The translations under genes and the position numbers were made by a program. Below are positions 24,925 through 40,421 of a stretch of DNA of 40,582 nucleotides, in pieces. Location of the stretch: assembly GCA_903881515.1 (NCBI GenBank), contig CAIRTN010000021.1:1-40582 (forward strand), given 5' to 3'. Below the pieces are notes generated by a model. The model was not told where the DNA came from and searched no databases. It worked only from the letters and a program-made list of their open reading frames with translations. The DNA is from an uncultured Rhodospirillales bacterium. Lineage in GTDB: Bacteria > Pseudomonadota > Alphaproteobacteria > Acetobacterales > Acetobacteraceae. The stretch's first letter is position 1, and the number at the start of each line of letters is the position of its first letter.

Positions 24925-25851
24925 TTATCCCAGCGATTTCTGCCGGGACCCGTTCGTCCCAACGATTTGGACGATCTGACGCCGGGCCCATTCCAGCGCA
25001 GGGTCGACGTGGCGGCGTTCATGCCAAGCGAGCAGGACGGAGAAGCGCGGCGGATCAATCGGCAGGGGCTGGATCTCCAGCAGCCCGGCGAAATCGGCCG
25101 CCAGACGCCGCGGCAGAACTGAGACCAGATCGGTTTGCAGCAACAGTTGGGGGGCGAGGAGAAACGACGGCAGCGATGTCGCGACGTTCCTTGCCCGGCC
25201 GAGCCTGGTCAACGCTTCATCGGTCGCGCCATGGAAGCCGCCGCCGTCTGGCGAGACCAGCACATGGGCCTGTGCGCAGAACCAGTCGAGATCTGGCTTC
25301 ACGCCAGGTTTCAGCAGTCCGTGGCGGTGAACGAGGACGAAATCCTCGTCGAACAGGACGATGTGGCGTGCATCGGGGGGTGTCAGCCGGCGAGAGGCGA
25401 GGAGAAAATCAATCCGGTCCTCGTCGAGATCAGACCAGGCTGTGGCGGTGTTGAACGGCAGCATGGCCAGTTTCGCCAGCGGCGCGTGTTCGGTCAGTTC
25501 GGCCATGAACGGCAGCATCACCAGGTGATGCAGCAGATCGCTCGCCGAGACGCGGAACACCCGGTCGCTGGTGGGCGGATCGAACGCGGTGCCGATCCGC
25601 AGCAGATCCCCCAGTGCGGCGATGCGGGTTCGCAGCGGGGCCTGAAGCTCCAGGGCGCGGGCGGTCAGCACCATCTGGCGGCCGGAGGGCACGAGGAGTT
25701 TGTCGCCGAACAGCGCCCGCAGCCGGGCGAGCTGGGCGGACATCGCTGGCTGACTGAGGCCGACCCGCACGGCGGCTTTGCTCACCGAACGCGCAGTGAG
25801 CAGGGCGTCGAGCGAGGCGAGCAAGGGAAGATCGGCGGCCTTGATATCCAT
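24925..25851 (-). CDS. LysR-family transcriptional regulator
   Basis: LLASLDALLTARSVSKAAVRVGLSQPAMSAQLARLRALFGDKLLVPSGRQMVLTARA. Start either 25869 (MKYIHC) or 25851 (MDIKAADL). Confidence 0.94.
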   Translation of the reverse strand: MDIKAADLPLLASLDALLTARSVSKAAVRVGLSQPAMSAQLARLRALFGDKLLVPSGRQMVLTARALELQAPLRTRIAALGDLLRIGTAFDPPTSDRVFRVSASDLLHHLVMLPFMAELTEHAPLAKLAMLPFNTATAWSDLDEDRIDFLLASRRLTPPDARHIVLFDEDFVLVHRHGLLKPGVKPDLDWFCAQAHVLVSPDGGGFHGATDEALTRLGRARNVATSLPSFLLAPQLLLQTDLVSVLPRRLAADFAGLLEIQPLPIDPPRFSVLLAWHERRHVDPALEWARRQIVQIVGTNGSRQKSLG

Positions 25852-25874
25852 GCAATGGATATATTTCATATCAA
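25841..25874. promoter_or_regulatory. Overlapping palindromes in LysR/MFS divergent region
   Basis: ATATCCAT-gca-ATGGATAT (25844-25862) nested in TTGATAT...ATATCAA (25841-25847 / 25868-25874). Confidence 0.55.
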
Positions 25875-27471: not shown

Positions 27472-28773
27472 ATGCTCCATAGCCCTCCCCTGCCAGACCC
27501 GATTGCCCAGGCCGTCCGTCATATCGCGGATGGAGTCGAGGCCAGCGTCGCCATGCTGGCGCGGATGATCGCCATCGACACATCCTTCCCACCTGGAACT
27601 GGCTACCCCGAATTTGCCACGCTCATGGAAGCCCTGGTCGAAGATCTGGGCATGCAGACGCGCCGGGTCGTGGTGCCGGAGGCGTTGTGGCAGGTGCCGC
27701 GTGGCCCCGCGCGCGGCGAACGCACCAACCTTATCGCAGCGCGGCGTACCGGCAAACCGGCGCTTGGGCTGTATTTCCACACTGACACCGTGCCGCCGGC
27801 GGCTGGATGGACCCGCGATCCGTTCACCCTGGCGCGCGAGGGGGAGCGGCTGATCGGGCTTGGCGCGGCGGACATGAAGGGCGACATCGCCGCCGTTCTG
27901 CTGGCGTTGCGCGCGGCGGATGCCTGCGGCGTGGCACTCGCATACGACCCCGTGCTGCTGTTCTGCACCGATGAGGAGGGCGGTCTTTATCCCGGCGTGC
28001 GCTACCTCGCCGAGTTGGGGTTGATCGAAGGCCATGTGCTCAATTTCAACGGCACGGCGGCGGCGCGGATCTGGGCGGGCTGCTTCGGGTTGTTCAACCT
28101 GCAGGTCAGGCTGAGCGGCGGCAGCGGCCACGCCGGCGATGCATCGGCGATCAACGCCATCGAAGCCGCGTTGCCGATCATGACCGCGCTGACCACGCTC
28201 AAGCCAGTCGTCGCCGCACGCCGTTCCGTGCTAACGGGCATCGATGGCGATCCCCTCGCCGCAAGGCTCGCCATCGTAGCTGCGCAGGGTGGCACCAGCG
28301 GCGGACAGGTTCCGGCGCAGTTCGACATCCTGGTCAACCGTCGCTACGCCCCTGAGGAGGACTTCGCCACCGCGCGCGCCGAGATCGAGAGCGCGATCCG
28401 CGCCGCGGTGCCGCACGGCCTCGGGATTGAGATTGACCTGGTCGGCCACCTTGCGCCGACCGCCGACCCCACCGGCCCGCATTGGCCACGCTGGCAGGCG
28501 GCACTGTCGCTCGGCTTCGGGTATCGGCCCGAAGATTTCCGCGCGTGGGGCGCATCCAGTTGTTCCGACTTCGGTTGGGTGCAGCGTGCAACCGGCAAGA
28601 GTGAAGTGCTGCTCACCGGGCTGGGCCGCCCCCACAACAACGTCCATTCGCCTGACGAATTCACAACGACCCGTGATATCGTCGCGATGGCGCAAAGCGT
28701 GCTTGCCTATCTCGCCGCCGATTTCGCCCCTGGGATGCTACCGGCGCCCGACCGCCCGGCTGCTCAACGCTGA
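27472..28773 (+). CDS. M20-family metallopeptidase (ArgE/DapE-like)
   Basis: HTDTVPPAAGWTRDPFTLAREGERLIGLGAADMKGDIAAVLLAL, CTDEEGGLYPG; terminal HNNVHSPDEF. Confidence 0.92.
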   Translation: MLHSPPLPDPIAQAVRHIADGVEASVAMLARMIAIDTSFPPGTGYPEFATLMEALVEDLGMQTRRVVVPEALWQVPRGPARGERTNLIAARRTGKPALGLYFHTDTVPPAAGWTRDPFTLAREGERLIGLGAADMKGDIAAVLLALRAADACGVALAYDPVLLFCTDEEGGLYPGVRYLAELGLIEGHVLNFNGTAAARIWAGCFGLFNLQVRLSGGSGHAGDASAINAIEAALPIMTALTTLKPVVAARRSVLTGIDGDPLAARLAIVAAQGGTSGGQVPAQFDILVNRRYAPEEDFATARAEIESAIRAAVPHGLGIEIDLVGHLAPTADPTGPHWPRWQAALSLGFGYRPEDFRAWGASSCSDFGWVQRATGKSEVLLTGLGRPHNNVHSPDEFTTTRDIVAMAQSVLAYLAADFAPGMLPAPDRPAAQR

Positions 28774-28785
28774 AAGAACCTGTCC

Positions 28786-30333
28786 ATGCCAGCATTTTCC
28801 CGTCGCCTCTTGCTCGCCGGTACTGCCGGGGCACTCACCCTGCCGATCGGCAAACAGCCACTCGCCGCCCCGCGCCGCGGCGGCACGCTACGGATGTCGG
28901 TCGACCAGGCCGCCAGCGTCATCCATCCGTTGCGGACTCGGGTAAACCCCGAATACCTCGTCAGCGAGCTGCTCTACAGCAACCTCACCCGCCTCAAGGC
29001 CGACATGACCGCCGAGCCGGACCTCGCGCTGTCCTGGCGCGCCAATGCCGAGTTGACGGAATGGACCTTCGTGCTGCGCGAGGGCGTGGTGTTCCATGAC
29101 GGCTCGCCGTTCACCTCGGCCGACGTCGCCGCAACGTTCAAGGCGATCCTCGATCCGAAGGTCGGCTCCCCCGGCCGCACCAATGTCGGTCCGATCGCCG
29201 ATGTTCTTACCCCCGATACGCGCACGGTGGTGTTCAAGCTCTCCGCACCCTACGCTGACCTCCCCGTCGCCGTCGCCTACACCAACGCCCGCATCATTCC
29301 CGCCGCCATCGCCAGCGGCAACCTTGACCGGCTGGCTCGCGAGGCGATCGGCACCGGCCCCTTTAAGCTGGTATCCTACGAGCCGGACCGGCGCATCGTC
29401 GTCGCGCGCAATGAGCGATACTACGACCCCGCACGCCCCAATCTCGACCGTATCGAGATCATGGTGTTCCCAGACCCGACCTCCGAAGCCTCGGCGCTGA
29501 TCTCGGGCGATACTGACCTGATGATGAATGCCGCGCAGGGCGAGTTCCCTCGCCTTTCCTCGGCCTCGGGCGTCACCGGCCTGCGCACCCCGTCTGGCCA
29601 GTTCCTCAATGTCAACATGGGCTGCGACGTTGCCCCGTTCAACGACGTGCGGGTGCGCCGCGCCTTGGCGCTGACCATCGACCGCGCCGCGATGGCCGGT
29701 TTCGTCGCCCAGGGCTTCGGCACGCCCGGCAACGATTCCGCGCTCAACGCCGCCTATCATTTCTATCAGGACCAGCCGCTGAAGAAGCTCGATATCGCCC
29801 AGGCCAAACGCCTGCTGGCCGAGGCCGGGCACCCCAACGGCCTCGATGTGACTATGATCGCCTCGGACACCCCAAGCACCCGCTCGCAGCTTGCCGTCGC
29901 GATCCGCGAGATGGCCAAGCCGGCAGGTTTCCGCATCACCGTGCAGACCATGCCGCACGCGACCTACCTCGATCAGGTCTGGAAGAAGGGCAATTTCTAC
30001 GTCGGCTTCTACAACATGCAGGCCACGGCAGATGCGATCTTCTCTCTGCTCTACACCTCCAACGCCGCCTGGAATGAAACCCGTTGGAACAACACTGCCT
30101 TCGACAAGCTTGTCGGCGAGGCCCGCGTGACCACCGACGAAGCCAGGCGCCGCGAACTCTACGGCAAGGCACAGGTGTTGATGAACGAGGAAGTCCCCTC
30201 GGTGATCCCCTGTTTCTTCGACCTGCTGGCCGCACGCCGCAACTATGTGCAGGGCTACGCACTGCATCCGCGCGGTGCGGTATTCCGCCTCGACGAAGCC
30301 TGGCTCGACGAAGGGGCCCCGAAGCGGGGCTGA
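28786..30333 (+). CDS. ABC transporter substrate-binding protein, family 5
   Basis: MPAFSRRLLLAGTAGALTLPIGKQPLAAPRRGGTLRMSVDQAASVIHPLRTRVNPEYLVSELLYSNLTRL. Confidence 0.94.
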   Translation: MPAFSRRLLLAGTAGALTLPIGKQPLAAPRRGGTLRMSVDQAASVIHPLRTRVNPEYLVSELLYSNLTRLKADMTAEPDLALSWRANAELTEWTFVLREGVVFHDGSPFTSADVAATFKAILDPKVGSPGRTNVGPIADVLTPDTRTVVFKLSAPYADLPVAVAYTNARIIPAAIASGNLDRLAREAIGTGPFKLVSYEPDRRIVVARNERYYDPARPNLDRIEIMVFPDPTSEASALISGDTDLMMNAAQGEFPRLSSASGVTGLRTPSGQFLNVNMGCDVAPFNDVRVRRALALTIDRAAMAGFVAQGFGTPGNDSALNAAYHFYQDQPLKKLDIAQAKRLLAEAGHPNGLDVTMIASDTPSTRSQLAVAIREMAKPAGFRITVQTMPHATYLDQVWKKGNFYVGFYNMQATADAIFSLLYTSNAAWNETRWNNTAFDKLVGEARVTTDEARRRELYGKAQVLMNEEVPSVIPCFFDLLAARRNYVQGYALHPRGAVFRLDEAWLDEGAPKRG

Positions 30334-30339
30334 CCGGCG

Positions 30340-31287
30340 ATGCCGGCACGCTGGCTGATCCGGCGGCTGTTGCTGGTCAGCTACACCGTGCTGGTGGTCT
30401 CGCTGCTGGTTTTCGGCATCACCCAGGTGCTGCCGGCCGACGCGGCGGTGGCCCTGCTGGGCGAGAACGCGACGCCCGAGGCATTGGCGGCGATCCGCCT
30501 GCGTCTCGGGCTGAACGACCCGGCGTGGCTACAATACCTGCACTGGCTCGGCGCGGCCTTAGGTGGCGATTTCGGCACCTCGATGCGTACCGGCCAATCG
30601 GTGGCGCCGATGATGCTGGTGGCCCTCTCGCGCTCGCTACTGCTGGCCGGTTTCGCGCTGGTGCTGATGCTCTGCATCGCGGTGCCGCTTGGAATTTGGG
30701 CGGCGCTGCGCCAGGGCAAGGCGGCGGACATGGTGTCGGGCATGATCTCGTATGTCGGGGTCTCGCTGCCCGAATTCGTCACCGCCACGCTGCTGGTGAT
30801 CTGCTTTGCCGACCGGCTGCAATGGCTGCCAGCAACTGGCTACATCCCGCCCGGGGAGGACTTCGCGGGTTCGATGATCCGGCTGGTCCTGCCGGTGGTC
30901 ACCGTCTCGCTGATGATGATCGCGCATGTCGCGCGGATGGTGCGCTCGGAAATGATCGACGTGCTGCACACCGACTATATCCGCGCCGCCCGGCTCAAGG
31001 GCCTCTCCGGCCAACGCGTGCTGCTGCGCCATGCCCTGCCGAACGCGCTGCTGCCGGTGATCACCATCGTGGCGCTTGATGTCGGCTATCTGCTCGGGGG
31101 GATCATCGTGGTGGAGGAAATCTTCGCCATTCCCGGCATCGGCCGCCAGTTGATTATCGCCATCAACACGCGCGATCTGCCGGCGATCCAGGCGGGGGCG
31201 ATGATCATGGCGCTGACCTACGCCGTGGCGAACACCATCGCCGACATGGCCTACGCCGCTCTCGACCGGCGGATCCGCTATGAGTGA
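30340..31287 (+). CDS. ABC transporter permease, DppB-like
   Basis: MPARWLIRRLLLVSYTVLVVSLLVFGITQVLPADAA; DYIRAARLKGLSGQRVLLRHALPNALLPVITIVALD. Confidence 0.95.
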   Translation: MPARWLIRRLLLVSYTVLVVSLLVFGITQVLPADAAVALLGENATPEALAAIRLRLGLNDPAWLQYLHWLGAALGGDFGTSMRTGQSVAPMMLVALSRSLLLAGFALVLMLCIAVPLGIWAALRQGKAADMVSGMISYVGVSLPEFVTATLLVICFADRLQWLPATGYIPPGEDFAGSMIRLVLPVVTVSLMMIAHVARMVRSEMIDVLHTDYIRAARLKGLSGQRVLLRHALPNALLPVITIVALDVGYLLGGIIVVEEIFAIPGIGRQLIIAINTRDLPAIQAGAMIMALTYAVANTIADMAYAALDRRIRYE

Positions 31288-32113
31288 CAACCTGTTGCGC
31301 CGCCTGTGGCGCACGAAGCAGGGCCGCATCGGAGCCATTGTCCTGGGGCTTGCGGCGCTGCTCTGCCTGTTCGGCCCAAACCTGGCGCCGCAGAACCCCG
31401 AGGCGATCGACTTCCTCGGCCGCTTCCGTCCGCCCGGCGCACAGAACTGGCTTGGCGCCGACCAGTTGGGTCGCGACGTGCTGAGCCGGTTGATGACCGG
31501 TGCGCGGTCCACCATCCCTCTGGCTTTGCTCGCCACCCTGCTCGGCACACTGGCGGGGGCCGTGATCGGCACACTGTCAGCATATCTCGGCGGGCGCTGG
31601 GACGAGGCGATCATGCGCAGCATCGACGCTGTGATGGCCGTGCCTGGCCTGCTGCTCGCCTTGCTTCTGGTCAGTAGCCTGGGCAAGGGCAGCCTGAACG
31701 CCGCTTTGGCGATTGCCATCGCCTTCACGCCGGGTATGGCGCGGGTGACGCGGTCCGTGGCGCTCAGCGTACGGGCGCAGGACTATGTCAAAGCCGCCAT
31801 CGCGCGTGGTGAACGTGGCAGCTTCATCGTGCTGCGCGAGATGCTGCCGAATGTGATTGGGCCCGTGGTCGTCGAGACGACGATCCGCGTCGCCTTCGCG
31901 GTGATGCTGTTCGCAACACTGTCCTTCCTGGGCCTTGGCGCTCAGCCGCCAGCGTCGGAGTGGGGCCTGATGGTCGCCGAGGCCCGCCGCTTCGTGCACC
32001 AGGCGCCCTGGATCATCCTCGCGCCAGCGATCGCCATCGGCATCACCGCGATTGGTTTCAACCTGCTCGGTGACGGCCTGCGCGATGCGCTGAACCCGCG
32101 GGACGAGCGATGA
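31280..32113 (+). CDS. ABC transporter permease, DppC-like
   Basis: NWLGADQLGRDVLSRLMTGARSTIPLAL; start overlaps previous gene. Confidence 0.95.
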   Translation: MSDNLLRRLWRTKQGRIGAIVLGLAALLCLFGPNLAPQNPEAIDFLGRFRPPGAQNWLGADQLGRDVLSRLMTGARSTIPLALLATLLGTLAGAVIGTLSAYLGGRWDEAIMRSIDAVMAVPGLLLALLLVSSLGKGSLNAALAIAIAFTPGMARVTRSVALSVRAQDYVKAAIARGERGSFIVLREMLPNVIGPVVVETTIRVAFAVMLFATLSFLGLGAQPPASEWGLMVAEARRFVHQAPWIILAPAIAIGITAIGFNLLGDGLRDALNPRDER

Positions 32114-33672
32114 GCGCGGTGCTGACGGTCGAAAATTACACTCTCGACTATCGCACAGGTTGGGGCTTGCGCCGTGCACTCGATGCCGTGTCGCTGTCGA
32201 TCGCGCCGGGCGAGGTGCTGGGGCTGGTCGGTGAGTCCGGCTCCGGCAAGTCCTCGCTGGCGTGGGCGATCACCCGCTCGCTGCCCACCAACGCGATGGA
32301 GGCCGGCGCGTTGCGGCTTGGCGCCGAGGACCTTCGAACCGCCTCGCCGCAACAACTCGGTGCCATCCGCGGCCGGCGGATCGGCATGGTATTCCAGGAC
32401 CCCTCAACGTCGCTGAACCCGACGATTCGGCTTGGCGAGCAGGTGATCGAGGTGCTGATGCGCCATCGCGGCCTCGACCGGACGGCAGCGTCTGCGGCGG
32501 CCGAAGCGGCGTTGGCCGATGTCGAATTGCGCGACCCCGCTGCCCTGATGCGGCGCTTCCCCCACGAGGCCAGCGGCGGCGAGAAGCAGCGCGTGGTGAT
32601 CGCCACGGTATTCGCCTGTGATCCCGAACTCATTCTGTTCGACGAACCGACCACCGCGCTCGACGTCATCACCGGCGCGCGCATTCTGGACCTGTTCGGG
32701 CGGCTGCGCGCCCGCACCGGGGTGGCGGCGCTGTATATCTCGCACGATCTCGGCCTGGTCTCGCGCGTGGCCGACCGCGTGGCCGTGCTCGAGCGTGGCG
32801 TGGTGGTCGAACAGGGCGTTCCAGCCGACGTGTTCCGCACGCCCGCGCACTCCTACACGCGCGTGCTGGTCGCCGCCGTGCCTCGCCCCGGCCATCGGCT
32901 GGTCGAAGACACGCCGCCGGCTACCACGCTGCTGACTGCGACGTCGATCAGCGTCCGCTATGCACGCAAGCGCCTGTTCCGGCCCGCGCCGCCGGCGGCC
33001 ACCCATGCAGTCGATTTCGATATACGGCGCGGCGAAATCTTCGGCATCGTCGGCGAGTCCGGCTCCGGAAAATCTTCGCTGGCCCGCGCGCTGACCGGCC
33101 TCGCCCCATTTACCGGCGCGATCGATCTCGATGGACGCCGCATCGCCGCGATGGACCGGCCCTACCGCCGCGCTGTGCAGATTGTGTTCCAGCATCCCGA
33201 TGCCTCGCTGAACCCGCGCATGCGCATCGCCGACATCCTGTCCCGGCCACTGCGCCTGTACGGCGGTGACAGTGCCGAGGTGCCGCGCGTGCTCGAAGAG
33301 GTCCGCCTTCCAGCCTCCTATGCCAGCAAATTCCCGCACCAACTCTCAGGCGGCGAGAAACAACGCGTCGCCATCGCCCGCGCGTTTGCCGCCAAGCCGG
33401 CTTTGGTGATCTGCGATGAGATCACCGCGGCGCTAGACGTGTCGGTACAGGCGCAGGTCATCGAGTTGCTGCTGGCGCTACGCCGGGCGCACGGCACGGC
33501 CTACCTGTTCATCACCCACGACCTCAACCTCGTACGCCAGATCGCGCACCGTATCGCGGTGATGCAGGAAGGCGTCATCGTCGAAACCCGCGACGCCGCT
33601 GATCTCGCATCGCCGGATGCACATCCCTACACCGCAGCGTTGCTTGCCGCCTCGCCTGCCCCCATCGGCTGA
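32110..33672 (+). CDS. ABC transporter ATP-binding protein with two fused NBDs (DppD-DppF fusion)
   Basis: Two Walker A (GESGSGKSSLAWA, GESGSGKSSLARA), two signatures (ASGGEKQR, LSGGEKQR), two Walker B (LILFDEPTTALD, LVICDEITAALD). Confidence 0.95.
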   Translation: MSAVLTVENYTLDYRTGWGLRRALDAVSLSIAPGEVLGLVGESGSGKSSLAWAITRSLPTNAMEAGALRLGAEDLRTASPQQLGAIRGRRIGMVFQDPSTSLNPTIRLGEQVIEVLMRHRGLDRTAASAAAEAALADVELRDPAALMRRFPHEASGGEKQRVVIATVFACDPELILFDEPTTALDVITGARILDLFGRLRARTGVAALYISHDLGLVSRVADRVAVLERGVVVEQGVPADVFRTPAHSYTRVLVAAVPRPGHRLVEDTPPATTLLTATSISVRYARKRLFRPAPPAATHAVDFDIRRGEIFGIVGESGSGKSSLARALTGLAPFTGAIDLDGRRIAAMDRPYRRAVQIVFQHPDASLNPRMRIADILSRPLRLYGGDSAEVPRVLEEVRLPASYASKFPHQLSGGEKQRVAIARAFAAKPALVICDEITAALDVSVQAQVIELLLALRRAHGTAYLFITHDLNLVRQIAHRIAVMQEGVIVETRDAADLASPDAHPYTAALLAASPAPIG

Positions 33673-33688
33673 TCCAGGAACCCATGCC

Positions 33689-34906
33689 ATGACCCCCCAA
33701 GACCTCCTTGCCGCAATCGACGACCAGGACTGCCTGAACATTCTCGCCGGCATGGCGCGGCATAAAAGCTACAGCCAGACCGAGGGCGAAAAGGTGTTGG
33801 TCGCCGAGATGGGGCGGCAGATGCGCGAACTGGGCCTGGAAACCGAACTCACCCCGGTGCCGGGCGATCGGGTCAACGCAGTTGGCCGTTGGCGCGGCAC
33901 TGGCGGCGGCAAGAGCCTGCTGTTCAACGGCCATGTCGACACCAATCCGGTGACAGAGGGTTGGACGGTCGATCCCTGGGGCGGCAAGGTCGACGACAAG
34001 TTCATCTACGGCATCGGCGTCTCCAACATGAAAGCCGGCGACGCGGCCTATCTCTGCGCTGTCAAGACGCTGATCCGCGCCGGCGTGAAGCTGAAGGGTG
34101 ACGTGATCCTGACCTTCGTTGTCGGCGAATTGCAGGGCGGCGTCGGCACCCGCGCACTTATGGAACAAGGGCTGCGCGCCGATTATTTCGTCAACAGCGA
34201 ACCGACTGACCTTGCCGCGATGACGATGCACGCGGCCGCCTTCACCTTCCTCATCGAACTGATCGGCGACACCAGACATCTCTCCAAGCGCGAGGAAGCG
34301 ATCGACGCCATCACCGCAGCGGTCGACATCATCCCGCGCCTGAACGCGATGACCTTCTCGGGCGCGTTGTCGCCCGACCATCTGCGGATCAACCGCTGCC
34401 ATGTCGGCGTAGTGCATGGTGCACTCGGCAGGGAACTGCACGAATGGCGCGCGCCGCAGGTCGCCGATTTCGTCCGCATCAAGGGCTCCGGCCGATACGC
34501 GCCGGGCCAGACGCAGGAGGGCGCGATGGCCGACATGCGGCGCGAACTCGATGCGCTGGAGGCCCGTTTCCCCGGACTGCGCGCCACGCTCGAAGCGGAA
34601 AGCGTGACCGGCCATCGCCCGATGCCGGCCTTCGAGGTGCGTCGCGACAGTCCTATCGTTAGCGCGATCAACCGGGCGTATTTCGCCGTCCGCGGCACAG
34701 CGCAACCGACCGGGGCGATCACGCCGCCGGGCTTTTACGGCACCGATGCTGGGCACATGTACCGCATCGGCGGGATGGAAGGCATCGTCTGCGGCCCCGG
34801 TGGGCGCTACAACACGATGCCGGACGAGCGGGTCGATATCCCCGACTTCCTCGACATGGTGCGGATCTACCTGCTGACCATCATCGAGATCTGCGAACTG
34901 GCCTGA
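33689..34906 (+). CDS. M20-family peptidase/deacylase homologue with altered metal-site motifs
   Basis: LFNGHVDTNPVTEGWTVDPWGGKVDDKFIYGIGVSNMKAGDAAYL; VVGELQGGVGTRAL; CGPGGRYNTMPDERVDI. ATG at 33689 in frame. Confidence 0.88.
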   Translation: MTPQDLLAAIDDQDCLNILAGMARHKSYSQTEGEKVLVAEMGRQMRELGLETELTPVPGDRVNAVGRWRGTGGGKSLLFNGHVDTNPVTEGWTVDPWGGKVDDKFIYGIGVSNMKAGDAAYLCAVKTLIRAGVKLKGDVILTFVVGELQGGVGTRALMEQGLRADYFVNSEPTDLAAMTMHAAAFTFLIELIGDTRHLSKREEAIDAITAAVDIIPRLNAMTFSGALSPDHLRINRCHVGVVHGALGRELHEWRAPQVADFVRIKGSGRYAPGQTQEGAMADMRRELDALEARFPGLRATLEAESVTGHRPMPAFEVRRDSPIVSAINRAYFAVRGTAQPTGAITPPGFYGTDAGHMYRIGGMEGIVCGPGGRYNTMPDERVDIPDFLDMVRIYLLTIIEICELA

Positions 34907-35509: not shown

Positions 35510-36103
35510 TCAGGTCGCATGGTGCCCTAGCAGCACCGCCATGTACAAGGGAAACAGTTCACGTCGCCGCTCCCGGCTCTCCTTCATCGCCAAAGCATAG
35601 TAGCCGATCTGGTGGTAGTAGGTCACACGCGCTCGGATCATCGCCTCGTCGGCGCTGTAGCCCATCTCCAGCAGGATCGTTTCAAACAACTGCATGCGCC
35701 GCTGGTCGATTTCCGCCACGCGGCGGGCGACCGGGCGGGAACTCCGGGCCCAGTCGCGCACGGCCGAATCGAAGGCCGGATCGAACCGCGTCTCCTCAAG
35801 CCACAGTCTGGCCATCGCTTCGTACCGCCCGGCGGCACTGATCCCTGTGGCGGTCGCAACCTCCTCGAACGGCGCGGTGTTCTCTGCCTCCCAGTGTTCC
35901 AGAAGCGACGTCAGCAGCGCCGCGCGACTGGTGAAATGCCAGTAGAAACTGCCGCGGGAGATATTCATCTGCGTGGCAATCAAATCGACCTTCACGGCCT
36001 GGATCCCGCCCTTAACCAGCACGGCGCGCGCGCTGCGGACCCAGTCCACAGGCGTCAATTTTTCCACCGTTGGGCGGGCTGCTATCGCCTGGTCACCGTC
36101 CAA
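35510..36103 (-). CDS. TetR-family transcriptional regulator
   Basis: ARAVLVKGGIQAVKVDLIATQMNISRGSFYWHFTSRAALLTSLLEHWE HTH. Confidence 0.93.
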   Translation of the reverse strand: MDGDQAIAARPTVEKLTPVDWVRSARAVLVKGGIQAVKVDLIATQMNISRGSFYWHFTSRAALLTSLLEHWEAENTAPFEEVATATGISAAGRYEAMARLWLEETRFDPAFDSAVRDWARSSRPVARRVAEIDQRRMQLFETILLEMGYSADEAMIRARVTYYHQIGYYALAMKESRERRRELFPLYMAVLLGHHAT

Positions 36104-36272: not shown

Positions 36273-37511
36273 ATGACCCGGATACTGTTCAAGAATGCCA
36301 ATGTCTTTGATGGCATCACGCCGCATCTCCTGCCCGGCCATGACGTGCTGGTCGAGGACGGATTGATCCGCGAAGTCTCTGCCACGGCGATCACCTCGGC
36401 TGCTGAAACAGTCGTCGATGTCGCCGGCCGCACATTGATGCCGGGGCTGATCGATTTGCATGTCCACATTTGGGCAGTGGACATGAACGTGACCACGATC
36501 ACCCATTTGCCCACCGAATACATCGCGCTGTTCGCTGCCGGCACCTTGCAGAAAAGTCTCGATCGGGGCTTCACCACCCTCCGTGATGCCGGCGGCACCG
36601 ATCTTGGCTACGCGCGCGCCATCGAACGGGGATTCATAAAGGCCCCCCGCTTCTATCACTCAGGCCGCTACATCTCTCAGACCGGCGGGCATGGCGATTT
36701 CCGCTCGATCTTCGAGCAGTCCTACACCGATTGCATTTGCTGCCCCGCTCCGCATGCCCGATTCACGGCGATTGCCGACGGCGCGGATTCCGTGCGCAAG
36801 GCAGTGCGTGAGGAATTCCGTCGCGGTGCCCGCCAGGTGAAGTTGATGTGTTCAGGCGGTGTCGCCAGCCCCACCGATCCGGTCGACAAGCTGCAATTCA
36901 CCGATGCCGAGATCCTCGCCGCGGTCGAGGAGGCGGATGTCCGCGGCCTCTACATTTTCGCCCACTGCCATCCCGACATCGCAATCCGCCGCGCCGCAGA
37001 GCTTGGCGTGCGCTGCATCGAGCACGCCTCGATGATCACGCCCGCTACCGCGCGTTTCCTGGCCAAAAAGGGCACCTACGTTGTGCCGACGCTCGCCGTG
37101 GTGAAAGCCTTCAATGACGATGGCGAAAAATTCGGGCTTCCCGCCTTTAGCCGGCAGAAGCTCGCGGGCATGTACGAAGCGATGCTGAACGGCCTCGGGT
37201 ATATGAAGGAGGCCGGCGTGAAGATGGGCTTTGGCACCGATCTTCTGGCCCAGCACCAGGATCGGCAATGCATCGAATTCGCCATCCGGGCCCAGGTGCT
37301 GCCCGCCTATGACATCCTGGTCTCGGCCACCTCGATGGCGGCCGAAATTCTGATGGAGGAAGGTCGCCTCGGCGTTATCGCACCCGGCGCGCACGCTGAC
37401 ATCCTGGTGGTGGACGGTGATCCCCTGCGCGATGTCACAATCCTGGGTCACGACGGCGCGACGTTCCCAGTGATCATGAAGGCCGGAGAGTTCCACAAAC
37501 GCACGATCTGA
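36273..37511 (+). CDS. Amidohydrolase family protein (Xaa-Pro/acyl-amino-acid hydrolase type)
   Basis: GRTLMPGLIDLHVHIWA, QVKLMCSGGVASPTDP, FAHCHPDIAIRRAAELGVRCIEHAS, GFGTDLL, GAHADILVVDGDPLRDV. Confidence 0.93.
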   Translation: MTRILFKNANVFDGITPHLLPGHDVLVEDGLIREVSATAITSAAETVVDVAGRTLMPGLIDLHVHIWAVDMNVTTITHLPTEYIALFAAGTLQKSLDRGFTTLRDAGGTDLGYARAIERGFIKAPRFYHSGRYISQTGGHGDFRSIFEQSYTDCICCPAPHARFTAIADGADSVRKAVREEFRRGARQVKLMCSGGVASPTDPVDKLQFTDAEILAAVEEADVRGLYIFAHCHPDIAIRRAAELGVRCIEHASMITPATARFLAKKGTYVVPTLAVVKAFNDDGEKFGLPAFSRQKLAGMYEAMLNGLGYMKEAGVKMGFGTDLLAQHQDRQCIEFAIRAQVLPAYDILVSATSMAAEILMEEGRLGVIAPGAHADILVVDGDPLRDVTILGHDGATFPVIMKAGEFHKRTI

Positions 37512-37540
37512 TGTGCAGATCGTCATCGGAGGAAACCAGA

Positions 37541-39127
37541 ATGCGTTCTGCCGCAAGAGCCATTCAGTTGTTGCTGATCTGTATGGTCGCTGGTCTTCAG
37601 CCGGCCTCCGCTCAACAGGTCACCATCGCTACCCTCGCTGATCCGACGCTCGATCCACATTTCGTCTATATCAGCAACAACGTCGCGTTCTGGCGCCATT
37701 TCACCACCACGCTGACGATGCACGACGATGCCAAGGGAACGGTACCGAACCTCGCCGCCGCGTGGACAGCCCCGGACGACCACACTTGGGACATTCAGCT
37801 TCGCACGGACGCAAAGTTCCGTGACGGCACGCCGATCTCTGCCGATGATGTCGTCTTCTCGCTCGGCCGTGTCGGCTCGATTCCCGGCAACCCAAGCCCT
37901 TACACGCCCAGCATGCAGGCGATCGTCGGCTTCGAGGCGCTTAGCCCGACGACCGTGCGCATCCACACCAGCCTGCCCGCGCCGGATACACCCGGCAACC
38001 TGATGCAGATAGGCATTGTCTCGCGGCGCGCCGTTGAGGGCAAGACGACCGGCGATATCAACGCTCGCACTGCCTTGCTGGAAAGCGGTCCGTTCATCGT
38101 TGAGAGCTTCAAGCAGGGCGACCGCGCGGTGCTGCGCCGCAATCCCGCCTATTTCGGCGAGGCGCCGCGTTGGGAGCAGGTGACCATCCGCTTCATATCC
38201 AACGACGCATCGCGCCTAGCCGCGTTGCTGGCAGGCGATGTTGACTTCGCCGATGTCCTTCCCGCGAACGATATTCCCAAGATCCGTGCCAATCCGAAGT
38301 TTGCGGTGTGGGATGGCCCGTCTAACCGATTCATGGTGCTCCTGATCAACTTCCGGCCCGACGCGGTTCCGGACATTACCGATGCCGACGGTAAGCCGCT
38401 CCCGGTCAATCCGCTGCTCGATCTGCGGGTACGTCAGGCGCTGTCCAAGGCGATTGACCGCCAGGTTCTGGTGGAGCGCGTGATGGACGGTGCCGGCGTA
38501 CCGTCCATCCAATATGCCATTCCCGGCATGGTCGGATACGATCCTAACCTTGTTGCCGGGCCCGCCGATCTGCCTGGCGTGAAGGCACTGCTGACCGCGG
38601 CCGGTTATCCCAATGGGTTCGGACTGTCGGTCAACTGTTCAAACAACCGCTACCCCAACGACCACAAGGTTTGCCAGGCGGTCGCGCAGATGCTGACGCG
38701 TGCCGGCTTCCGCGCCAAGGTCGAAACCATGCCGGTGGCCATGCTGATTCCGATGATCCGCGGGGCGGGCGAGGCTCCGAGCAAGATCTCGCTCGGTATG
38801 CTGGGCCTTGGCACCGTCGGGGTATTCCCCGGTGGCCTCGCCACGATGGTCCATTCCAATTCGCCGGCGGTTGGCCGCGGCGGCTTCAATCTCGGACGCT
38901 ACAACAATCCCGTAATTGACCGTCGCATCGACGAGGCGATCGCCACGCTCGATCCGGTTCTGCGCGAGCAGCGCACGCGCTCATTGATGGGAGATTCAGT
39001 CGCGGATGTGCCGATCCTGCCGCTGTTCTTCCTCAAGGTGCTTACAGCCGGGCGGGCCGACCTGACCTACACCACCAACACCTACGAGGAGACCCTGGCC
39101 TGGAACCTGAAGCCGCTTGCCAAGTAG
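37541..39127 (+). CDS. ABC transporter substrate-binding protein, family 5
   Basis: CGGAGGA RBS; signal peptide MRSAARAIQLLLICMVAGLQPASAQ; DPTLDPHFVYISNNVAFWRHFTTTLTMHDD; DAKFRDGTPISADDVVFSLGRV. Confidence 0.93.
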   Translation: MRSAARAIQLLLICMVAGLQPASAQQVTIATLADPTLDPHFVYISNNVAFWRHFTTTLTMHDDAKGTVPNLAAAWTAPDDHTWDIQLRTDAKFRDGTPISADDVVFSLGRVGSIPGNPSPYTPSMQAIVGFEALSPTTVRIHTSLPAPDTPGNLMQIGIVSRRAVEGKTTGDINARTALLESGPFIVESFKQGDRAVLRRNPAYFGEAPRWEQVTIRFISNDASRLAALLAGDVDFADVLPANDIPKIRANPKFAVWDGPSNRFMVLLINFRPDAVPDITDADGKPLPVNPLLDLRVRQALSKAIDRQVLVERVMDGAGVPSIQYAIPGMVGYDPNLVAGPADLPGVKALLTAAGYPNGFGLSVNCSNNRYPNDHKVCQAVAQMLTRAGFRAKVETMPVAMLIPMIRGAGEAPSKISLGMLGLGTVGVFPGGLATMVHSNSPAVGRGGFNLGRYNNPVIDRRIDEAIATLDPVLREQRTRSLMGDSVADVPILPLFFLKVLTAGRADLTYTTNTYEETLAWNLKPLAK

Positions 39128-39164
39128 GGCAAACAATCGGTCAGGACGGAAGGGAGCAAGACCA

Positions 39165-40421
39165 ATGGCGATCACGATATTCAGTAATACCGCGCTATTT
39201 GACGGCGTCTCGCCGGAGCGTCGGGAAGGGCAGCACGTCGTCGTTGAGGACGGCGTCATCCGCGAAGTGACAGACAGACCGGTCATACTTGAGGGCGCCG
39301 AGACCATCGATCTCTCCGGGCGCACCCTGATGCCCGGGCTGATTGATGCCCATATTCATGCCTATTTCCCGGACGTCGATCCGCGGCGCGGCGACCAGAT
39401 GCCGATCACGATGGTGGCGCACCGGGCTCGCGTGATGCTCGAGGCCTCGCTGCAGCGCGGCTTCACCTCGGTGCGCGATACCGGCGGCGGCGATCACGGC
39501 CTGTTCCTGGCCATTGAGCGCGGCTGGGTCCGCGGGCCACGCCTGTTCTATTGCGGGTCCGCCCTGAGCCAGACCGGCGGACATGGCGATATGCGCCGGC
39601 CGTTCGACCCGGAACTGTGCACCTGTGGCCTAGCTTGGTCCCGCCCCCGCGGTTATCGCGGCCATCTGACGTGCACCGTGGACGGTGTCGAGCCGCTGCG
39701 CGAGGCGGTACGCGAGGAATTCCGAAAGGGTGCCCATTTTATTAAAATCATGGGCTCCGGTGGCGTGGCCAGCACAGGCGACTCACTCACCCACGCGCAG
39801 TATTCGCCCGAGGAAATTCGCGCCGTCGTGGACGAGGTCGAGCGGCACGGCAGCTATGTCACCGCCCATGTCCATCCCGACGGAGCCCTGCGCCGCTGCA
39901 TCGAGCTTGGCGTCCACTGCATCGAGCACGGCACGATGCTGTCGGATGACACGGCGGCCCTCGCCGCCGCGCGCGACGTCTCCATTGTGCCAACCTTGGC
40001 CGTGATCGAGGCATTGCGGCTCCATGGGCCGCGGTTGGGCTTTCCAGCGGAATCGATGCGCAAGCTTGCCGAGGTCCAGCCCACCGCAGTTGCCGGTGTC
40101 GAGCGGATGAAGCGCGCCGGCGTCCGGATTGGCTTCGGCACCGACCTGATCGGCGAGCTCGACCGCCACCAGTGCATCGAGTTCACCTTGCGCAGCGAAG
40201 TGATGACGCCGTTCGAAATCCTTCGCTCCGCCACCAGCATCAATGCCGAGATCATTCGCCAAGGCAACTGGATTGGCCGCGTGGCGGAAGGGTATGCGGC
40301 CGACCTGATCGTGGTTGACGGTGACCCGCTGCGCGACATCGCGTTGCTAGCCGCGGATGGCAGCAAGGTGCCGCTGGTGATGAAGGGTGGCTTGGTGCTG
40401 AAGCGTGAGGCGATGCACTGA
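39165..40421 (+). CDS. Amidohydrolase family protein (paralogue of 36273..37511)
   Basis: GRTLMPGLIDAHIHAYF, FIKIMGSGGVASTGDS, TAHVHPDGALRRCIELGVHCIEHGT, GFGTDLIGELD, AADLIVVDGDPLRDI. Confidence 0.93.
   Translation: MAITIFSNTALFDGVSPERREGQHVVVEDGVIREVTDRPVILEGAETIDLSGRTLMPGLIDAHIHAYFPDVDPRRGDQMPITMVAHRARVMLEASLQRGFTSVRDTGGGDHGLFLAIERGWVRGPRLFYCGSALSQTGGHGDMRRPFDPELCTCGLAWSRPRGYRGHLTCTVDGVEPLREAVREEFRKGAHFIKIMGSGGVASTGDSLTHAQYSPEEIRAVVDEVERHGSYVTAHVHPDGALRRCIELGVHCIEHGTMLSDDTAALAAARDVSIVPTLAVIEALRLHGPRLGFPAESMRKLAEVQPTAVAGVERMKRAGVRIGFGTDLIGELDRHQCIEFTLRSEVMTPFEILRSATSINAEIIRQGNWIGRVAEGYAADLIVVDGDPLRDIALLAADGSKVPLVMKGGLVLKREAMH

Follow-up and report, generated by a model that had tools for sequence, protein, structure and literature searches.

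M20b, encoded by the last gene of a six-gene peptidase and importer operon in the window (the 40,582-nucleotide stretch of DNA analysed here), is an M20-fold hydrolase with half of the family's metal site. Its sequence makes it probable that M20b is an active single-metal C-N hydrolase that cleaves an amide, or an aromatic or amidine amine, in an imported compound. The presumed substrate is most likely a small peptide-like or N-acyl compound taken up by the adjacent ABC importer. The nearest characterised relative appears to be 5-nitroanthranilic acid aminohydrolase (5NAA-A), an M20 protein with the same pattern of ligand loss.

M20b is an intact and conserved gene

The M20b open reading frame (33689..34906, forward strand) encodes 405 residues and contains no internal stops. 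An earlier in-frame ATG at 33617 lies within the preceding ATPase gene, and the starts of the orthologues match 33689. The Pfam Peptidase_M20 model matches the protein at 7e-27 with 95.1 bits against a curated cut-off of 24.6, which assigns M20b to the family at the level of the fold; the Pfam M20_dimer model gave no match at 1e-3. AlphaFold predicts an M20 fold (pLDDT 80.7, pTM 0.82) whose Foldseek matches are M20 enzymes, with pLDDT below 50 in the active-site loops 87-94, 348-350 and 375-378. M20b falls far short of the NCBIfam cut-offs, scoring 145.5 against the 217.6 of TIGR01910 and lower still against the ArgE and DapE models. Current annotations call M20b-type proteins generic M20 hydrolases or, in Neorhizobium, acetylornithine deacetylase, and these assignments are very probably wrong for the family. 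A literature search on the M20b operon, on ddpX together with M20 genes and on M20 ligand loss found nothing about the M20b family; a paper on the Hil operon proved to have no relation to the M20b operon.

The motifs GHVDT, GVSNMKAGD, GELQGG (within VVGELQGG) and GGRYNTMPDE are all present in the reading frame, as the original prediction stated. It had called for a family alignment of the three altered motifs, and 54 orthologues that are 65-87% identical were aligned, 53 of them complete at the C-terminal tail. SNMKAGD or SNMKSGD is found in 54/54 sequences, as is GELQGG. The GGRYNTMPDE tail is present in 51 of the 53 complete rows, and the remaining two read YNTMPNE and FNTMPDE. The altered motifs are jointly conserved, co-occurring in essentially all 54 orthologues. 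The same residue pattern occurs in copies from Pantoea, Sodalis, Variovorax, Paracoccus, and Agrobacterium and Rhizobium plasmids. H82, D84, E147, E171, D353 and the lid His are invariant. Nine pairwise comparisons gave dN of 0.09-0.24 against dS of 0.65-0.97, indicative of purifying selection. The 54 orthologues and the substitution rates rule out a pseudogene or sequencing artefact, and on these sequence comparisons chance or decay is excluded as the origin of the residue pattern.

M20b retains the Zn1 half of the metal site

M20b was aligned with E. coli ArgE (7rsf) and a DapE-like protein (7uoi) to assign its ligand positions. ArgE binds Zn1 through H80, E169 and D112, and Zn2 through D112, E145 and H355 (PMC11270798). 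H82 of M20b aligns with ArgE H80 and lies in the retained HxD motif (H82-V83-D84-T85, codons 33932..33943, forward strand, as are all codons given here). N113 (34025..34027), Asn in 54/54 orthologues, takes the place of the metal-bridging D112. E147 and L148 (34127..34132) align with E144 and E145, so the base is retained and a Zn2 ligand has become Leu. E171 (34199..34201), in a SEPT motif, is the counterpart of E169. T376, within the G371-E380 GGRYNTMPDE segment (34799..34828), occupies the position expected for the Zn2 ligand H355 in the alignment to 7uoi.

Both of the Zn2-only ligands are therefore gone and the bridging Asp is replaced by Asn, leaving His82 and Glu171 of the five residues that define the di-zinc site of ArgE and DapE. 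M20b resembles these enzymes (7rsf, 8uw6, 7uoi) in its M20 fold, Zn1 His and Glu, catalytic Glu and lid His, and differs from them in the bridging Asp, the second Glu of the EE pair and the C-terminal His. The substitutions behind the predicted altered metal site are thus real, but the alteration extends to only half of it, since E171, E147 of the GEL motif and the lid His H197 are retained. Mono-zinc and di-zinc crystals of ArgE alike contain Zn1, and the occupancy of Zn2 is lower (PMC11270798), which makes the Zn1 half the chemically sensible one to keep.

These residues are consistent with a mechanism with one divalent metal at the position of ArgE Zn1, where H82, E171 and probably N113, through its amide oxygen, would bind it. 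E147 would deprotonate a metal-bound water, and the resulting hydroxide would attack the substrate. H197 contributed by the lid domain of the partner subunit would stabilise the transition state. R254 and Y374, which are conserved in M20b and in the H-type proteins described below, may bind a carboxylate of the substrate or fill the space left by the second metal. We infer the mononuclearity of M20b, its metal contacts, its substrate class and every catalytic step from the sequence.

M20b groups with 5NAA-A

5NAA-A (NaaA) is a metal-dependent enzyme of Bradyrhizobium sp. JS329 that binds a single labile metal at each site. Its structures (5k8m-p) include Mn- and Zn-bound forms according to the entry titles. 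A profile of the M20b family searched against the PDB matched 7uoi first and 5NAA-A second (5k8p/5k8m, 7e-18), the latter across the first domain only. 5NAA-A chains were also among the top Foldseek matches of the M20b model, with TM up to about 0.79 and approximately 20% identity in the structural alignment. Like M20b, 5NAA-A has the M20 fold, the His of HxDT, Asn at the bridging position, a Glu base followed by a replaced Glu (GEI versus GEL), the Glu equivalent to ArgE E169 and no C-terminal His; its homologues carry the same set. M20b has each of the residue states used to recognise a 5NAA-A-like protein, namely the Asn bridge, the Glu base and the loss of the second Glu and the ligand His.

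A maximum likelihood tree of 55 M20 sequences was calculated after deletion of the ligand columns; it included 17 M20b, 2 H-type and 7 5NAA-A-like sequences. These three groups form one clade (support 100/98) apart from the sampled di-metal M20 enzymes, in a tree with long branches and modest sampling of the remaining M20 family. M20b and the H-type proteins are sisters (97/91), and the M20b branch lies outside the 5NAA-A group. The two H-type proteins, from alphaproteobacterial genomes, are about 32-36% identical to M20b and share with it GEL, GRY, PDER and the loss of the second-site ligands, but their bridging residue is His, not Asn (VHMKSA/VHMKAA). Both carry GELRGG. The top PDB match of the H-type protein is 5NAA-A (1.3e-20). 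The profile match, the common ligand pattern and the common clade are three lines of evidence for 5NAA-A being the closest characterised relative of M20b. The tree suggests that the second metal site was lost once, at the base of this clade, before the proteins diversified.

The relationship raises the question of whether M20b performs a reaction outside peptidase chemistry. Published accounts of 5NAA-A describe an SNAr-type hydrolysis by a metal hydroxide (PMC11903332; PMC9814641), and M20b could likewise remove the amino group hydrolytically from an aromatic or heteroaromatic ring through nucleophilic aromatic substitution. The shared clade and ligand pattern speak for this reading, which we regard as unlikely. 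A phylum-wide search with one 5NAA-A-like protein (L104) returned a single weak locus. 5NAA-A-like plasmid genes occur in Paraburkholderia, Acinetobacter baumannii and Kozakia next to LLM flavin oxidoreductase and isochorismatase-like hydrolase genes, with a flavin reductase in 2/3. These are probably clusters for the catabolism of ring compounds, the substrates that the clade as a whole probably handles. The neighbourhood of M20b is unlike that of 5NAA-A: it lies beside an oligopeptide-type importer and peptidases (M20a, M24, DdpX) and not beside genes for ring degradation. The active sites also differ. GEI is followed by an insertion in 5NAA-A, which has no lid His and carries R289, whereas M20b reads GELQGGV without the insertion, keeps H197 and has Gln257 at the R289 position, and in these features it does not match 5NAA-A. 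R254 was considered as the counterpart of R289 and rejected, because R289 aligns with Gln257, and R254 with a Lys of 5NAA-A.

M20b might alternatively still bind two metals if the second-site ligands came from shifted residues such as D118, N375 or Y374. In favour of this, D118 is invariant (17/17, and also in the orthologue alignment) where canonical M20 proteins have hydrophobic residues. However, Leu and Thr stand in place of the two Zn2-only ligands, and most relatives that share this loss carry Asn, Met, Leu or Val at position 118, so the loss of ligands does not track a compensating Asp. We consider a two-metal M20b improbable. A characterised di-zinc homologue with shifted ligands, which would have spoken against the original prediction, was not found; 5NAA-A has the same changes as M20b, and D118 stays a candidate for a shifted ligand.

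A single-metal M20b or one that catalyses a different reaction, two of the options first put forward, is supported by the loss of one site's ligands, the retention of the other site and the base, and the proximity of 5NAA-A. The third option, a non-catalytic protein, is disfavoured by the invariant H82, D84, E147, E171, D353 and lid His and by the constant presence of this enzyme in the operon.

M20b belongs to a transporter operon with a second altered M20 protein

The operon is a tight run of six forward-strand genes with gaps of at most 16 bp and two overlapping gene pairs. M20a (27472..28773) is followed by a family 5 ABC transporter substrate-binding protein (28786..30333; Pfam SBP_bac_5, 8e-81), an OppB/DppB-type permease (30340..31287), an OppC/DppC-type permease (31280..32113) and a fused OppD-OppF type ATPase with two ABC domains (32110..33672). 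M20b is last, 16 bp past the ATPase. A LysR regulator (24925..25869) and a TetR regulator (35510..36103) lie nearby on the reverse strand, unlike most annotated copies elsewhere, which have a divergent GntR gene. A downstream module (36273..40421) consists of a family 5 binding protein between two amidohydrolases, both nearest to the Xaa-Pro dipeptidase model NF051886 and under its cut-off.

M20a (433 residues) keeps HTDT, D134, E168, E169 and H392. The Glu of the EPT motif, equivalent to ArgE E169, is Asn193 (HVLNFNGT versus YVLSFEPT in carboxypeptidase G2), and no nearby acid substitutes for it. The FNG motif is found in every listed M20a orthologue, in six further plasmid-borne copies and in four additional genomes (readable in 4/5). 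M20a was therefore discarded as a canonical control. It had been taken for the canonical member beside one rewired M20, but both proteins lack ligands: M20a is missing a Zn1 ligand and M20b the Zn2 ligands.

The operon occurs in Alpha-, Beta- and Gammaproteobacteria and is often plasmid-borne. Across 53 loci of the genome collection, OppDF directly precedes M20b in all but two (L004, L053), and M20a is present in most loci with enough flanking sequence. In L004, M20a and M20b are adjacent with the transporter genes absent between them. M20a was not found in four Paracoccaceae loci (L042-L045), one of which (L045) has an M24 gene of the creatinase/prolidase type in its position, and neither M20a nor M24 is annotated in the Variovorax cluster. 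The Agrobacterium vitis and Rhizobium CC-CFT758 clusters add M24. In Pantoea and Sodalis, M24 and the D-Ala-D-Ala dipeptidase DdpX follow M20b; no DdpX was detected in the window or elsewhere among the annotated loci. The E. coli ddp operon, which combines this dipeptidase with an importer, resembles the Pantoea and Sodalis clusters in DdpX and in the transporter type. To our knowledge it contains no such M20 pair. In 385 sampled genomes M20b was found in 9 and M20a in 6, all 6 among the 9 (Fisher p about 2e-11 over the 385 genomes, with kinship ignored). The loci without M20a rule out an obligate M20a-M20b pair. The constant core is the transporter plus M20b; M20a is dispensable and the other peptidases vary. 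This arrangement favours M20b as an enzyme acting on the imported compound and makes a dead partner of M20a less likely. The assortment of accompanying peptidases, DdpX among them, suggests that the substrate is peptide-like and may contain unusual or D-residues.

M20a and M20b could also be enzymes that each preserve a different half of the ancestral two-metal site and work on one unusual, peptide-like imported compound, either one after the other or in a complex, M20b then carrying out with its single metal a reaction not known among peptidases; we consider this quite unlikely. Least probable is that M20b lacks catalytic activity and serves as a partner or regulator, for instance of M20a in a heterodimer whose half-sites complement each other: the two proteins lack different ligands, are near neighbours in most loci, including the one without the transporter, and occur together in 6/6 sampled genomes with M20a, but M20b is found without M20a in Variovorax, the Paracoccaceae loci and 3/9 sampled genomes, its catalytic-type residues are invariant, and the metal sites of M20 dimers reside in separate catalytic domains, so half-sites cannot share ligands.

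Discussion

M20b is read here as a probable single-metal hydrolase of an imported compound. As judged from the aligned residues, its ligand loss has a precedent in 5NAA-A. A further M20 group, with one member in the same genome (L058, contig C335) and others elsewhere (L088-L092, L121), has HGDVV, AVSKSD without the bridging Asp and AGFS without the EPT Glu, a metal site rewired differently from that of M20b. The clade of M20b, H-type and 5NAA-A proteins is a natural test of the role of the second metal in M20 enzymes. The wide distribution of the operon among plant-associated bacteria and plasmids makes it conceivable that its substrate is a nutrient of ecological relevance.
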